Source: a virus
Virus record (IMG/VR): IMGVR_UViG_3300030012_000682
Coordinates: 1-20,419 of that record
DNA length: 20,419 bases
Direction: 5' to 3' (one strand)
Position numbers and translations under genes: made by a program. The notes below the pieces were generated by a model that saw only the letters and a list, made by a program, of their open reading frames with translations, did no database searches and had not been told where the DNA came from. Of this stretch, positions 2,638 to 9,866 are shown one piece after another; position 1 is the stretch's first letter; each line of letters starts with the position of its first letter.

Positions 2638-2862
2638 TTAAAAAGGTTTCTTGGGTGTAATGTTGTTTGCTTGTTCCCACTTAAGGATTTCTTTTAGTTC
2701 ATATCGAACCTTTGCGGAACCTGATGACACCGCGTATTTGGGAAGTGTGTAGTATTCGGGTCCACGATCTTTGCGTCTCCAATCAGCAATAGTTGCTGGG
2801 CTTAACCCATATCTTTCAGCTAACTGGTCAGATGTTAAAAATTGCTGTTCAGTTTGATTCAT
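2638..2862 (-). CDS. MerR/excisionase-like helix-turn-helix protein (74 aa)
   Basis: Residues 9-30 (LTSDQLAERYGLSPATIADW) form a helix-turn-helix of the HTH_17/AlpA/excisionase kind: a first helix, a 'YGLS' turn and a recognition helix ending in W. The second half (SAKVRYELKEILKWEQANN) matches the wing and helix that follow it in that family. It lies between the annealing protein, which it overlaps by ATGA, and the SSB-like protein. It could regulate the operon or act as an architectural DNA-bending factor. No integrase is in view, so calling it an excisionase is not justified. Confidence 0.75.
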   Translation of the reverse strand: MNQTEQQFLTSDQLAERYGLSPATIADWRRKDRGPEYYTLPKYAVSSGSAKVRYELKEILKWEQANNITPKKPF

Positions 2863-3482: not shown

Positions 3483-4345
3483 TAGATTGTTTCCTGCATT
3501 TGATCTATTGTTGGATTTTTTAGTTCTAACACGTAAGTTATGTCAGTAGCTGGTGCCATAAATCTTGTTTTCTTTACACCATCAATCCAAAAGTTAAATA
3601 ATCTTATGAAAGCGTTTAGTTGGTATCTTTGATAAGAAGAGCCTCTATGTCTGAAACCTTTTTGCATCATTTGATTTCTAAAAGATAATATCGGATTATC
3701 TATATCTAAATTTGTTCCTTCTGCAAACTGTGTCCAAAATTCATCTAAAATCTCCTCAGAATAATTTTTATCCTTAATGAGTTTATACATTGCAATTGCA
3801 ACACTTAAATTAAAAAAGTGAAACTTCCTATGACAAAAATTAATTTTTTCTGTTATGTCGTCCCATAACTTTCTATTAAGATTGTATTCATTAGCGATTT
3901 CTGTATGAGTTGGGATTGTGGCATAAGTCCAACTGCCTTTAGGAAATCTTTGATAAAGGAAATACACTTTAATACCAGCAGCTATCTTTGTTGGATTTGT
4001 ACAACCTTTAATAAATAAACCATCAGCGGCTGTTCTTGCAGTTCCAGTATCAACACAATTAAATATTTTTGGATCCATATTCCTAGCAACCATTATTGGC
4101 AATGTTTTACCAGTTTTTACGATTGCTTGGAGTCGGTGTTGACCATCTAATAAATTGCCGTCTTTATCAAAAGCAATACCCTGATTAGTTAAGATCCATT
4201 CATCATTATCAATAGCTGTGATAAGTCTTTTTAAATTTGCTGGTTTTAATCCTCTGTTATTAGAGTTTTTTGTTTCAAGTACACTTTCAGCGAAATCAGG
4301 GGTAATGTGTTCTACTTGAAAGGTTGGTGTTAGTGTTTTAGTCAT
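3482..4345 (-). CDS. ParB/sulfiredoxin-fold protein (287 aa)
   Basis: The diagnostic sequence is NLLDGQHRLQAIVKTG (about residues 64-79): the DGQHR box of the ParB/Srx nucleotide-binding fold, preceded by 'LTNQGIAFDKDG' strands. About 180 residues of helical C-terminal sequence follow, without an obvious second domain. The start is the ATG at 4345, which overlaps the exonuclease stop by 8 nt; starting further upstream would force a deep overlap with the exonuclease. ParB-fold proteins in phages range from nucleases and CTPases to DNA-modification accessories, so its job here is open. Its place between exonuclease and annealing protein suggests DNA metabolism. Confidence 0.75.
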   Translation of the reverse strand: MTKTLTPTFQVEHITPDFAESVLETKNSNNRGLKPANLKRLITAIDNDEWILTNQGIAFDKDGNLLDGQHRLQAIVKTGKTLPIMVARNMDPKIFNCVDTGTARTAADGLFIKGCTNPTKIAAGIKVYFLYQRFPKGSWTYATIPTHTEIANEYNLNRKLWDDITEKINFCHRKFHFFNLSVAIAMYKLIKDKNYSEEILDEFWTQFAEGTNLDIDNPILSFRNQMMQKGFRHRGSSYQRYQLNAFIRLFNFWIDGVKKTRFMAPATDITYVLELKNPTIDQMQETI

Positions 4346-5153
4346 TTGAGTAGCCGAGCCAGTGGGGTTTGTCGAGGGTTTGGATTTGGTCTTTGCACTT
4401 CTCTGTGTATCCTGACCAGATACCTGTGGTAACTGCCTCAGAAATTTTATGAAGTGCTTGCTCTTGGATTTCGTAGCCATTGTCTAAAAATTCTGTTGAT
4501 AAATCGTAAATTCCTATGTTGTAAGGAAATGTTTTTTCTATTACTACAAATACAAAACGCTTTGCGCCTGTACCTTGTAAGTAATGTGCTGCTTGAAGAT
4601 GATAATTAAAAGCCGTAATTGTTTTAGTAAACGACTCAGGGGAAGAACCACCTTCACCAGTAGTTTTAAGATCTACTATCGTATCGCCATTAACTTTGTC
4701 GCAACGGCATTTGAGATCTAATTTCGTATCGTTATGAGTCCACCAGAAACTTTGTTCTGATAATCCTTCATTTAACAATTCATGCGCTTTAGGATTACTG
4801 CAAATTGCTTGAGTCATATTGTCAAGCAAAACAGCATCTATTGGAGTCATTACTGTAATACCTTGTTTATCAAAATCAAGTGCTTGTGCTTTACCTTCTT
4901 TAGTGCGCTTGTTTTCTACGACTCTAAATTTATCGTGAAAAGTATCAGGCTCTAAACACATCGCGTGAAGCATAGTACCAAACTTCATTGCTGGTGTTGG
5001 AAGTCTGGGAGGTGCATATTCATTGAACTTGTAATGCCATAAGGCTCTGGCATTTTGTTTAGTTATCAGTTTTAAATCACTAGCACTAAAAGCTGGGTCT
5101 GCTTGATAGCTGGCAAAATCTACTGATACTGGTTCAACAGTTTGAGTGGTCAT
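4338..5153 (-). CDS. PDDEXK exonuclease, RecE/exodeoxyribonuclease VIII-like (271 aa)
   Basis: It would chew 5' ends to give the single strands that the annealing protein uses. In order: FSASDLKLITKQNARALW (about 22-39), FGTMLHAMCLEPDTF (58-72, including the conserved His), KCRCDKVNG (148-156) and TIVDLKTT (158-165), which supply the D...DxK metal site, then YHLQAAHYLQG (184-194) with the Gln and Tyr typical of the family. The length fits the nuclease core alone (PF12684-like), without the long N-terminal part of E. coli RecE. The ATG overlaps the upstream 66-aa stop by ATGA, and its own stop overlaps the ParB-like start by 8 nt. Confidence 0.85.
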   Translation of the reverse strand: MTTQTVEPVSVDFASYQADPAFSASDLKLITKQNARALWHYKFNEYAPPRLPTPAMKFGTMLHAMCLEPDTFHDKFRVVENKRTKEGKAQALDFDKQGITVMTPIDAVLLDNMTQAICSNPKAHELLNEGLSEQSFWWTHNDTKLDLKCRCDKVNGDTIVDLKTTGEGGSSPESFTKTITAFNYHLQAAHYLQGTGAKRFVFVVIEKTFPYNIGIYDLSTEFLDNGYEIQEQALHKISEAVTTGIWSGYTEKCKDQIQTLDKPHWLGYSND

Positions 5154-5999: not shown

Positions 6000-6225
6000 T
6001 TGTTGTACCTTTTAAAGTGTTCATTAAATTTTGTTCTACTGTTAGAACTTCCATTGCTTTATTACAAGCGTCTGAAGCGTGTTCAGCAGTGATTTCTGGA
6101 TCCATAAGCATAAAACAGATGGCATTAGTAACCTCTTCTGTGTAGCTATCGCTAGGACTTGTAAATAAAAGAATGAACCCTTGGTATAAGGATTCAAATT
6201 TATCTTTTGCTGGTTCTAGTTTCAT
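5992..6225 (-). CDS. Hypothetical protein (77 aa)
   Basis: The start at ATG 6225 (MKLEPAKDKF) is preferred because it makes an exact ATGA overlap with the 43-aa gene. An earlier in-frame ATG at 6243 would add six residues inside that gene. The protein is helical and acidic with Met-rich patches (NAICFMLMDPEITAEHASDAC). No domain recognised. Confidence 0.75.
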   Translation of the reverse strand: MKLEPAKDKFESLYQGFILLFTSPSDSYTEEVTNAICFMLMDPEITAEHASDACNKAMEVLTVEQNLMNTLKGTTNG

Positions 6226-6353
6226 TTTGAAATCTCCTGACAAGCACGAACTATTCCAGCGTCACAGTCTGCAACAGTCATGTCATATAAAGAACCAGAT
6301 AAAGCTGTATAGAATAAACCTGATACAGCGATCATTAAAAATAAATGTCTCAT
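6222..6353 (-). CDS. Tiny exported or membrane-anchored protein (43 aa)
   Basis: The ATG at 6353 overlaps the upstream stop by ATGA, and its TGA overlaps the next ATG in the same way, so both ends are fixed by coupling. MRHLFLMIAVSGLFYTALSG is a signal peptide or membrane anchor. It is followed by a short tail with two cysteines (ADCDAGIVRAC) that could pair outside the cytoplasm. There is no lipobox. The function is unknown, but such a protein is unexpected among recombination genes. Confidence 0.7.
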   Translation of the reverse strand: MRHLFLMIAVSGLFYTALSGSLYDMTVADCDAGIVRACQEISK

Positions 6354-6579: not shown

Positions 6580-6798
6580 CTAAACCTCACAGTTCATGTA
6601 CTCAGAAGGTGCGACACCTCTGTTTGTCTGTCTAGCCATCTGTTCAAGAATGATTCTGATAGTGCCAGCATAGCTATTTGGAGAAGCATCAATAAACTGC
6701 TGCTCATCATCTGGTAGGCTTTCTTTGGCCTCTAGGAGTACCATTTCAAGGTTTTCTAGCTGTTCGTCATTGAAGATTAATTTAAGTTCCTGATCCAT
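6580..6798 (-). CDS. First gene of the leftward early operon, acidic (72 aa)
   Basis: It is acidic and helical (NDEQLENLEMVLLEAKESLPDDEQ), then has SYAGTIRIILEQMARQ. The ATG at 6798 is preceded by the motif TCTCGCAAA five bases upstream and by a promoter about 40 nt away, so this gene leads the operon that ends with the recombination module. No domain recognised. Small acidic first genes of phage early operons are often host-takeover proteins, which is only a general expectation here. Confidence 0.75.
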   Translation of the reverse strand: MDQELKLIFNDEQLENLEMVLLEAKESLPDDEQQFIDASPNSYAGTIRIILEQMARQTNRGVAPSEYMNCEV

Positions 6799-6812
6799 AA
6801 TTTTGCGAGATT

Positions 6813-6834
6813 AAAAAAGCGGGTACTCACCGCT
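6813..6834 (-). promoter_or_regulatory. 5'-leader hairpin plus T-run at the leftward start site
   Basis: On the minus strand AGCGG and CCGCT (6834-6830 and 6822-6818) pair around a 7-nt loop and are followed by six T's. The form is that of an intrinsic terminator, but it lies at the predicted first base of the leftward transcript. It may therefore be an operator dyad, an mRNA-protecting 5' stem, or an early attenuator. The five-pair stem is weak. Confidence 0.4.
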
Positions 6835-6839
6835 CTCTC

Positions 6840-6868
6840 ATTATGACGCATCAATACACAAGTGTAAA
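6840..6868 (-). promoter_or_regulatory. Sigma70-like promoter of the leftward early operon
   Basis: On the minus strand TTTACA (6868-6863) and CATAAT (6845-6840) are separated by 17 bp, each matching the consensus at 5 of 6 positions. The predicted start is near 6833, about 35 nt before the 72-aa gene. This is the best promoter in the window. Confidence 0.65.
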
Positions 6869-6908
6869 CCATTATGGATTAAAAGTTACAATATCTGAAT
6901 ATATTAAA

Positions 6909-6940
6909 GTTTTACTGATGTTTACTGTTGCGGTTTTACT
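6909..6940 (+). repeat. Three GTTTTACT-type direct repeats (operator candidates)
   Basis: GTTTTACT occurs at 6909-6916 and 6933-6940 with GTTTACT at 6920-6926 between them, so the starts are 11 and 13 bp apart, about one helical turn. They lie between the divergent promoters, and the last overlaps the rightward -35 box. An inverted near-copy (AGTGTAAAC, 6861-6869) covers the leftward -35. Spacing on one face of the helix suggests cooperative repressor or activator sites. Confidence 0.45.
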
Positions 6941-6956
6941 ATTAATGAGTCATAAT
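6928..6956 (+). promoter_or_regulatory. Sigma70-like promoter for rightward genes
   Basis: TTGCGG (6928-6933) and CATAAT (6951-6956) are 17 bp apart. The -10 matches 5 of 6 and the -35 only the TTG core, so an activator may be needed. The start would be near 6963. A short stem (AGCTC 6965-6969 with GGGCT 6974-6978) follows at once, about 35 nt before ATG 7000. Confidence 0.45.
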
Positions 6957-6999
6957 TAATTCATAGCTCGAAGGGGCTGCACTTTACATTTTCTCGCAA

Positions 7000-7407
7000 A
7001 TGACAAACTTACTACCAGAAACTCACACAGCACTTAACAAAACTATCAAAGGTTTTGCATACAATCACGAGACAAAAAAGTTAGAAGAAACTACTTTTAC
7101 TTTTACTGAACTTGAAAAACAGGTTATGAATCAATTTCCTATTGATTGGTACGTAGATGACTTAGAGGATTGTGATTATGGATTGGATGACCCAGCTGAT
7201 TGGCTTATTGATTGGAGAGATACCAAAAAATTAGCTGAAAAGCTAGACATTACAACACAACAGCTTAAAGGTGTTGTTGGTTCACTTATAAACAAAGGTG
7301 CATTAGATGTTGAGTCTAGAGGTGAGACTAAGGCAGAAAAAGATATTTGGGGTCAAGACCTATGGTGGCTAAATGAAACAACTTTCAAATCTTTGATTGC
7401 TAAATAA
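7000..7407 (+). CDS. Winged-helix-like DNA-binding protein (135 aa)
   Basis: The C-terminal half KKLAEKLDITTQQLKGVVGSLINKGALDVE (helix, turn, recognition helix, then wing-like strand) reads as a winged helix-turn-helix. The N-terminal half is acidic (DWYVDDLEDCDYGLDDPAD). As first gene of the rightward transcript, next to candidate operators, it could be a regulator of the divergent promoters. It is closed by its own strong terminator, so it is largely a one-gene transcript. The start is the ATG at 7000, whose A is the last base of the TCTCGCAAA motif. DNA binding is inferred from fold pattern only. Confidence 0.7.
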   Translation: MTNLLPETHTALNKTIKGFAYNHETKKLEETTFTFTELEKQVMNQFPIDWYVDDLEDCDYGLDDPADWLIDWRDTKKLAEKLDITTQQLKGVVGSLINKGALDVESRGETKAEKDIWGQDLWWLNETTFKSLIAK

Positions 7408-7436
7408 GAGGGGCTACTACCCCTCCTTTTTTTTTT
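7408..7436 (+). terminator. Intrinsic terminator
   Basis: GAGGGG (7408-7413) pairs with CCCCTC (7420-7425) around a six-base loop and is followed by a C and ten T's. It starts directly after the TAA of the 135-aa gene. Confidence 0.9.
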
Positions 7437-7454
7437 AAATTTTCTATTAATGCT

Positions 7455-7640
7455 ATGGACTACAAATTTGATGGACACCTTCATAAAACAATCATCAATA
7501 ATGTTCTTGCTGACCAATACTTAACAGCTATGTGTGTTGAGGACTACTTAAGTTCTATGTCAGAAAAAGAATTAGATGAATGGATTAAAACTTTTATTCA
7601 AACAGGAAAAATTAAAACCAATGACAAAAAAAATGACTAA
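7455..7640 (+). CDS. Small hypothetical protein (61 aa)
   Basis: It is acidic and helical (VEDYLSSMSEKELDEWIKTF) with a Lys/Asn-rich tail. It begins 19 nt after the T-run of the terminator, so either a promoter overlaps that region or some polymerase reads through. The next gene starts inside its 3' end. No family recognised. Confidence 0.65.
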   Translation: MDYKFDGHLHKTIINNVLADQYLTAMCVEDYLSSMSEKELDEWIKTFIQTGKIKTNDKKND

Positions 7641-8539: not shown

Positions 8540-8648
8540 TCGGGGAGCCTGATGACTCTTGGTTAAAGGTCTGGTACCAAGTAGGTCTGAAAGTCAAACA
8601 ATATTGGAGCAATCCAAAAGACAGGGAGGTTGATTTGCGAGAGTTAGC
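8540..8648. other. Gap between the 54-aa frame and rusA
   Basis: No independent gene starts here. A plus-strand frame (8446-8715) reads DDSWLKVWYQVGLKVKQYW and looks coding, but has no ATG, GTG or TTG near its beginning and runs into antisense rusA. A 6-bp inverted repeat CTTGGT (8558-8563) / ACCAAG (8576-8581) has no T-run. A third copy of TTTGCGAGA lies at 8634-8642. Confidence 0.4.
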
Positions 8649-9098
8649 TTACTCATCCCCCGACTTATTATTAATTGTTTGTATCGTTATCATTGAATGT
8701 GGTTTAAGAGTATAATTTTGATCGCAGTAATATTTTCGGGCTTGCAAACTTACCACTTGCGAATCGTCAGCAATCGCAGATAATGTTAAAGCATCTAATG
8801 TGCTTCGACATAATTTGTCTATATCCCCTTTGTTCCTAGTGACAGGAAATTTAGGCGCAGATTGCTTAACTTGACCTTTTGAGTTTAAATGTGATTTCGG
8901 TCGATTAAACCAAAAAGATATTTCTATATGTACTGGTTCACTGATTAATTCATCGACAACTTTATTTGCTTCAACCCTAACCGCATCCCTAAATGGCCTT
9001 ACCCTCTTACACGATTCAATCATTCTACCCTTGCCTAAATAAGTTTTACTGCCCTGTGGAGCAGCTTCTATTCCTTCAACAGTAATTACATATTTCAT
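8649..9098 (-). CDS. rusA: RusA-family Holliday junction resolvase (149 aa)
   Basis: It cuts four-way DNA junctions left by recombination or replication before packaging. The core GDIDKLCRSTLDAL (residues 91-104) followed by IADDSQVV (109-116) contains the family's acidic metal-binding residues (D92, D94, D111/D112). The N-terminal AAPQGSKTY matches the 'apqGSK' opening of phage RusA proteins. The length is close to the usual 120-150 residues. It runs leftward, alone, with its start only 3 nt from the start of the divergent replication gene, so its promoter must lie inside that gene. Confidence 0.88.
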   Translation of the reverse strand: MKYVITVEGIEAAPQGSKTYLGKGRMIESCKRVRPFRDAVRVEANKVVDELISEPVHIEISFWFNRPKSHLNSKGQVKQSAPKFPVTRNKGDIDKLCRSTLDALTLSAIADDSQVVSLQARKYYCDQNYTLKPHSMITIQTINNKSGDE

Positions 9099-9101
9099 AA
9101 A

Positions 9102-9866
9102 ATGAGTTTCATACCTGAAAATGTACCTTTCGTATCTTTGCCTACTGCATTAAAAGGCAGAATAAGTCCACATCAATTAGCAGTTCTTTGGGTATTGCAA
9201 AGTTACTATCCGAATATATGGCCTAGTTATAGCACAATCGCAAAAGATGCTGGTATGTGTAGAACAAAGGTAATTCACACTGTTGAACAACTGGTATCTC
9301 TTGGCTGGCTTCAGAAAATCAGAAGATTTCAAGATGGTAAACAAACTAATGCTTATAGAGTTACAGTTTGGCATGAATGCAAGATTCCAGCACCTCAACA
9401 ACCCAGTGTTGAAGCGAGGTGTATCTCAGCAACTAGTACACCAGATGAACTAGGGTGGTGTACCACAGCAACTAGGGGTGGTTCACGAGATGAACCTAAA
9501 CTAAAACAAGATAAACTAAAACAAATAACTAAAAAGAAAAAGGATTATTCTGAAAATTTTGAGCTTTTCTGGAAAAAGTATCAATCTCAAAATAATAAAT
9601 GTGTGTCTCAATCTAAGAAACCAGCATTTAAGGAATATCAACTTCTCGATAAAAAAACTCAAGATAAACTAATAGACTGTCTCGAAGCAGATTCCAGATT
9701 AAGAGTAAAACTTATCAGGGATGGAAAATTTGTACCAATGTGGCCTGATTGTTTCCGATGGATTAAAAATGGTCAATATGAACAGTTTTTAGAGTTGCGC
9801 GAGCAGAAATCTAAGTCAAAATTAAATCCCATGCTTGCTAATAAAGCAAAAAATCAACCCTTTTAA
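9102..9866 (+). CDS. Helix-turn-helix replication initiator-like protein (254 aa)
   Basis: Residues 18-90 form a winged helix of the HTH_36 type: SPHQLAVLWVLQSYY, SYSTIAKDAGMCRTKVIHTV, then LGWLQKIRRF and a strand ending AYRVTVW. That family opens many phage replication proteins. The middle (about 100-150) is a variable polar linker, and its DNA holds repeats. The C-terminal part (ENFELFWKKYQSQNN...MWPDCFRWIKNGQYEQF) resembles the helicase-loader-side domain of DnaD/lambda O-like proteins, with the typical 'F..fw..yp...' and 'p..W' features. The likely role is to bind the phage origin and recruit the helicase. No Shine-Dalgarno sequence precedes the ATG. Confidence 0.75.
   Translation: MSFIPENVPFVSLPTALKGRISPHQLAVLWVLQSYYPNIWPSYSTIAKDAGMCRTKVIHTVEQLVSLGWLQKIRRFQDGKQTNAYRVTVWHECKIPAPQQPSVEARCISATSTPDELGWCTTATRGGSRDEPKLKQDKLKQITKKKKDYSENFELFWKKYQSQNNKCVSQSKKPAFKEYQLLDKKTQDKLIDCLEADSRLRVKLIRDGKFVPMWPDCFRWIKNGQYEQFLELREQKSKSKLNPMLANKAKNQPF
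9416..9540. other. Candidate replication origin inside the initiator gene
   Basis: Two 21-bp direct repeats (9416-9436 and 9455-9475) match at 18 of 21 positions and start 39 bp apart. Each has a dyad (GTGGT/ACCAC in the second). AACTAG occurs three times and AGATGAAC twice (9443-9450, 9488-9495). A stretch of about 82% A+T follows (9496-9540), with the 12-mer AAACTAAAACAA at 9498-9509 and 9513-9524. Iterons followed by an AT-rich unwinding element within the initiator gene is the lambda ori layout. The repeats are in codon phase, so a repetitive protein linker is the rival explanation. Confidence 0.45.

Follow-up and report, generated by a model that had tools for sequence, protein, structure and literature searches.

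A bipartite leader RNA conserved at the start of both divergent early operons in relatives of Prochlorococcus siphophages: a possible signal for antitermination

Judging from their sequences, the two divergent early operons of the phage analysed here and of its relatives open with the same bipartite RNA leader, formed by a 5' hairpin with a G-purine loop and the linear motif YUYCGCAA. The leader RNA element is real, conserved and apparently undescribed; in a limited literature search we found no description of an early regulatory signal of Prochlorococcus siphophages. The leader may act as a processive antitermination signal of the nut/put type, a reading to which we assign a probability of about 40% and which we prefer to that of an element for 5' stability or translation start.

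The window, i.e. the whole stretch of 20,419 nucleotides that was analysed, comes from an IMG/VR virus record of 24.2 kb. Its segment between 5.4 and 9.1 kb shows 76-77% DNA identity to the Prochlorococcus MED4 siphophages MED4-184/P-HS2 and MED4-117, and its terminase shares 87% identity with theirs. These identities mark the window phage as their relative. P-HS2 is a lytic siphovirus of MED4 (PMC7852597). Left of 6.8 kb the window holds a minus-strand early operon with genes for exonuclease VIII and a Sak-like annealing protein, and right of 7.0 kb a plus-strand operon that leads to the replication, terminase and portal genes. The exonuclease VIII gene shares about 143 nt with the 332-aa gene that follows it, which is read in another frame (window 4338-4480), and the overlap is annotated likewise in MED4-117 (L085 1257-2252 and 2116-2931). 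A gene for a RusA-like resolvase (8649-9098, minus strand) is situated inside the plus-strand early operon, with 3 bp between it and the replication initiator, which starts at 9102, an arrangement that is kept in MED4-184 and MED4-117.

Scans of related viral contigs revealed 62 distinct mirrored cassettes; the close cassettes of the window type number 15, the window's own counted in. A second clade (clade B), the terminases of which are 77-82% identical, has the same leader plan with other sequences. Mirrored leaders are also present in the named isolates MED4-184 and MED4-117. A divergent leader of this kind was absent from the stretches examined of the Synechococcus relatives KBS-S-2A and S-H1. 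The matches in L475, L477, L479 and L481 were dropped, since their context is unrelated and the resemblance is apparently a coding coincidence.

Table 1. Positions of the features in and around the divergent region, in window coordinates.
Feature	Position	Strand	Remarks
First left-operon gene, 72 aa, acidic	6580..6798	-	no significant Pfam/PHROG match
Left linear motif TCTCGCAAA	6802..6810	-	relatives UCUCGC(AAA|CAG)
Left leader 5' hairpin GCGGUGAGUACCCGC, 4-bp stem, loop UGAGUAC, then U6	6819..6833	-	fold -4.1 kcal/mol
Left promoter -10 CATAAT, 17-nt spacer	6840..6845	-	CAGAAT in some relatives
Left promoter -35 TTTACA	6863..6868	-	TGTAAA kept in 15/15 aligned relatives
Centre GTTACAATATCTGAATAT, possible regulator site	6885..6902	.	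invariant in close relatives, diverged in L473/L478
Right promoter -35 TTGCGG	6928..6933	+	sequence, relatives' alignment
Right promoter -10 CATAAT, 17-nt spacer	6951..6956	+	sequence, relatives' alignment
Right leader 5' hairpin UAGCUC-GAAG-GGGCUG	6964..6979	+	fold -6.4 kcal/mol
Right linear motif TCTCGCAAA, overlaps ATG (7000)	6992..7000	+	CTCGCAAATG in 15/15 relatives
First right-operon gene, 135 aa	7000..7407	+	replaced by unrelated genes in relatives
Intrinsic terminator GAGGGG-CUACUA-CCCCUC + U-run, directly after gene 1 stop	7408..7425	+	fold -10.1 kcal/mol

An earlier sequence-only reading had placed two outward-facing promoters with CATAAT boxes and 17-bp spacers in the 201-bp divergent region (Table 1), and both the sequence and the coordinates were confirmed. 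The same reading had set these promoters within nested perfect inverted repeats. Both repeats are indeed there: GTCATAAT is mirrored in 8/8 positions, as part of a 17-nt inverted pair of 88% (6840-6856/6940-6956), and ATCCATAAT/ATTATGGAT in 9/9 (6793-6801/6871-6879). The 9-bp ATCCATAAT repeat, however, is not conserved among relatives; it was discarded as a meaningful element and is probably a product of chance. The pair of linear motifs itself constitutes a 9/9 inverted repeat (6802-6810/6992-7000).

Both leader hairpins begin at about the expected +1 of the predicted transcripts. The many stem sequences and the strong compensatory change among them indicate that the leader hairpin is a true RNA hairpin. 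In the window-type phages the right hairpin combines an invariant GAAG loop with at least three compensated stems (AGCUC/GGGCU, AGCCU/AGGCU and GGCG/CGCC); in the left leader GCGGURAGUACCCGC and the U-run are kept, as is CUCGC in 14 of the 15 close cassettes. The sub-clade of L473, L476 and L478, of which the promoter centre has diverged, retains GGCCG-GAGG-CGGCC as its right hairpin and GGGG-GAGG-CCCC as its left one. One of the clade B leaders reads AUGGCU-GAGA-GGCCGU (or GGCUA-GAGA-UAGCC, or GGCC-GACA-GGCC) followed by UUCUUUCGCAAGG, and the other GGUCGA-GAGA-UCGGCU (or ACCCA-GACA-UGGGU) followed by CUUCGC(A/U)AA. The G-purine tetraloops of the leader hairpins comprise GAGA, GACA, GAAG and GAGG; the loops of the GNRA fold among the leaders are GAGA, GACA and GGCA, whereas GAAG and GAGG are merely GNRA-like.

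Counted on loop-anchored 16-mers, 56 of 60 stem cells are paired in the right-leader types (shuffle mean 36.8) and 39 of 42 in the left-leader types (shuffle mean 31.9), values reached in 0/2000 shuffles on either side, where the shuffles ignore relatedness. Up to four different standard pairs occur per stem position, a variety that is difficult to account for unless an RNA hairpin is under selection. The small hairpin that had been proposed at the predicted start of both transcripts is thus backed by covarying stems across the relatives. In the non-window-type phages the loops of the two leaders combine as GAGA(+U) with GAGA (37 cases), GACA or GGCA with GACA (5) and GAGG with GAGG (2), and the loop class differs between the leaders in just one such phage among the 62 distinct cassettes; the window-type phages have a RAGU loop on the left and a GAAG loop on the right. 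Agreement in loop class is what would be expected if a single factor reads both leaders, but as a single 180-bp cassette carries both loops at its two ends and they are inherited jointly, it is suggestive rather than independent proof. L071, L084 and L069 gave no Rfam match at the gathering score, and a permissive Rfam scan of window 6600-7600 returned sub-threshold matches at chance level only.

The linear motif stands next to both first ATGs, as had been noticed before, with no Shine-Dalgarno sequence at either start; the left TCTCGCAAA stops 3 nt short of the left ATG (6798). Exact TCTCGCAAA occurs three times in the window against 0.14 expected from simulations of the window, and two or more copies arose in 3 of 300 such simulations. 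The third copy (8634-8642, minus strand) was rejected as a leader: it is located past the RusA stop, without a hairpin or a start codon. On the left, TCTCGCAAA is confined to window-like phages and gives way to TCTCGCCAG or CTTCGCTAG in the others; the conserved unit is the hairpin plus YTYCGCAA on both sides, rather than the exact 9-mer. The right-hand CTCGCAAATG remains invariant in the close cassettes despite a complete change of the gene that follows. The gap from hairpin to YUYCGCAA ranges from 2 to 17 nt and the distance from motif to ATG from 0 to 13 nt.

In 478 kb of related phages we counted 141 copies of YTYCGC(A/T)A, 91 of which (65%) precede an ATG ORF by at most 18 nt, as compared to 0-15% for ten control motifs. 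There are 2-3 copies per phage, with no Shine-Dalgarno sequence within TCTCGCAAATG. The linear motif is also found before second genes, there without a GNRA hairpin. A conserved GATTGCCCATGCTTCGCTACC....ACGATACATGAACATCTTTCT, with a CTTCGC(T)A copy, occurs 5' of a 54-aa right-arm ORF in L059, L256, L261, L271, L277, L299 and L340.

The search for the motif before start codons in related genomes, which the sequence-only reading had advised, was run and yielded the hairpin and YTYCGCAA in the 62 distinct cassettes. Together with the covarying hairpins and the named isolates, this strongly supports the paired element proposed for both leaders. The suggested contact with structured rRNA, if made by pairing, found no counterpart, as Prochlorococcus 16S rRNA contains no match or complement of 6-9 nt; upstream of host genes the motif showed no enrichment (5/71). 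The paired transcriptional and translational switch put forward earlier thus holds in altered form, without the pairing to 16S rRNA. The 65% of copies close to an ATG ORF keep a purely translational switch possible, whereas the distance to the ATG is variable, and the layout of the terminators indicates control of elongation at least as well.

That layout is markedly one-sided. A strong terminator at or after the stop of gene 1 was found in 32 of 47 right-type arms (68%) and in 1 of 51 left-type arms (2%; Fisher p 5e-13), and its usual form in clade B is CCCCACCTCAACTGGTGGGG. From the terminator stem it is typically 27-34 nt (about 29) to the next start codon, a gap too short to hold a promoter ahead of gene 2; in the window the next ORF begins at 7455. 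The genes behind the gene-1 terminators thus need read-through from one upstream promoter. In several phages the gap between terminator and gene 2 again carries TATTCACTTCGCAAATTATTCAA. Moreover, gene 2 behind the terminator in L453 and L363 is the gene that directly follows the leader in L291. The repeated motif in the gap and the same gene in two places imply that modules come to be stacked in the slot, every one with the motif at its 5' end and a terminator at its 3' end. In L069 the motif of gene 3 shares sequence with the C-terminal codons of gene 2.

The slot of the first right-arm gene (window 7000-7407 and its equivalents) is a hot spot of exchange, where unrelated ORFs of about 60-340 aa are found between an identical leader and terminator; it may be a candidate site for host-takeover or counter-defence genes. 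The window's own gene gave a weak DnaD_N-like winged-helix hint (E 0.0095, which misses the cutoff). The left first genes are constant across the window-type phages.

In the antitermination reading, the leader would act in cis, as a signal in the nascent RNA that is read while the polymerase departs from the promoter, and would protect the transcription complex against pausing and termination, like lambda nutL/nutR or HK022 putL/putR. The rest of each early operon would then be transcribed, on the right past the terminator that closes gene 1. The first-gene slot would serve as an exchange site, incoming genes bringing their own 5' motif and 3' terminator while the genes behind the incoming module would still be transcribed. 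The mirrored leaders, the hairpin with its G-purine loop and a terminator with promoterless genes beyond it fit this type of antitermination best.

The layout resembles lambda nutL/nutR in having a copy behind each of the two divergent early promoters, a hairpin with a GNRA-like loop plus a conserved linear element, and on one side a first-gene terminator. However, in lambda nut boxA precedes boxB, whereas here the hairpin comes first and the linear motif lies 3' of it and abuts the start codon; in addition, there is neither a significant match to boxA nor an N-like gene in common, and the left side has no terminators. HK022 putL/putR are likewise cis RNA elements 3' of both early promoters, with putL directly following PL at the 5' end, and require no dedicated phage protein (PMC9378689); put nevertheless measures about 70 nt with two stem-loops, as opposed to one hairpin of 12-16 nt and a linear 8-mer here. 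The rrn leaders, with their boxB-boxA-boxC order, also place a hairpin and then a linear element just after the promoter, and carry another such set deeper in the operon (PMC10250234). YUYCGCAA, however, shows no significant similarity to GAACCUUGACAACUG, the boxA of the host ITS, and the host rrn/ITS boxA was rejected as source of the motif (best match 6/8, shuffle p 0.11).

Several observations count against antitermination. No internal terminator was found in the left-type arms before the end of the operon, and MED4-184 and MED4-117 have the leader without a terminator after gene 1, both of which weaken the case. Hairpins at the extreme 5' end are typical of mRNA stabilisers, and the motif without GNRA hairpin before second genes would suit a role at the start codon. 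Cyanobacteria are not known to possess Rho, so that one usual need for antitermination would be missing. A search for an N-like gene common to all members found none, so that the signal would depend on host factors, on direct action on the polymerase or on an unrecognised phage protein. A basic 91-aa early protein (KDQHKRARFKALKMPRVNALVQKHKQL..., L071 left arm 299-575, and homologues) is a weak RNA-binding candidate; it occurs in 31 of 60 loci, in clade B only and in none of the window-type phages. A 43-aa early ORF (MRHLFLMIAVSGLFYTALSGSLYDMTVADC..., window 6222-6353, minus strand), conserved across both clades (52 of 60 cassette loci) and annotated in P-HS2 but not in MED4-184, was rejected as an N-like protein, as it is signal-peptide-like and not basic.

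The leader might instead be a post-transcriptional module of immediate-early genes, the hairpin blocking 5'-end-dependent RNase E decay and YUYCGCAA serving as a phage-specific substitute for the Shine-Dalgarno sequence, which we regard as quite possible, if short of probable. The excess of motif copies near ATG ORFs over the controls argues for it, together with the start of both hairpins near the expected +1 and the way the motif moves with the 5'UTR of a gene to post-terminator sites devoid of a GNRA hairpin. A precedent is offered by the SAS/ESAS of cluster K mycobacteriophages, an invariant phage-specific motif just 5' of the start codons of certain non-structural genes, part of which also have an inverted repeat farther 5' (PMC3203893); SAS, however, contains AGGAG, is present in 11-19 copies per genome and has inverted repeats that do not covary as RNA hairpins, in contrast to the few copies, the lack of a Shine-Dalgarno sequence within the motif of the window and the clear covariation here. 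The variable motif-to-ATG distance, the absence of 16S complementarity, the fact that host genes do not use the motif and its restriction to two or three genes per phage count against such a module, and a pure stabiliser would need no conserved loop class common to both leaders.

Conserved boundary sequences have been described for lambdoid phages, and the leader and terminator could be identical flanks for the swapping of early genes by homologous recombination. Unrelated first genes do lie between identical leader and terminator sequences, stacked cassettes retain an older 5' motif (L453, L363; L069), and the window phage encodes the Sak-like annealing protein and exonuclease VIII. We nevertheless consider this explanation improbable, because compensatory stem changes around a kept loop point to selection on RNA structure and not on DNA identity, and the left leader is conserved though the left first genes of window-type phages are constant. 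Control at the level of DNA, with operators for a phage regulator at the divergent promoters and the leader kept as initially transcribed sequence, could account for the presence of TATTRATGMGTCATAAT in both promoters in mirror orientation and for the invariance of the centre GTTACAATATCTGAATAT in close relatives. The left operon encodes an AlpA/excisionase-like HTH protein (window 2638-2862, minus strand; HTH_17 E 1.5e-6), a possible regulator of the divergent promoters, and Pseudomonas AlpA is described as an antiterminator (PMC7969949). No integrase was noticed in the stretches read of the phages that have the AlpA-like protein. Yet the hairpin and motif are kept in L473/L478, where the centre has diverged, the centre is different in clade B under the same leader plan, and the covariation of the stems is a signal at the level of RNA; DNA-level control thus seems a poor prospect.

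Returning to antitermination, the leader could represent a new class of leader RNA, i.e. a cyanobacterial processive antitermination that works without N or boxA, is mirrored and drives exchangeable, terminator-closed early genes, but we offer this as a tentative and rather doubtful proposal. If control of elongation is true, it would mean an antitermination signal in hosts not known to possess Rho. The leader is present in the lytic isolate P-HS2, which grows on MED4, and is thus directly testable. Finally, as leader and terminator bound the slot in which early genes are exchanged, genes for host takeover or counter-defence may be findable by position alone.
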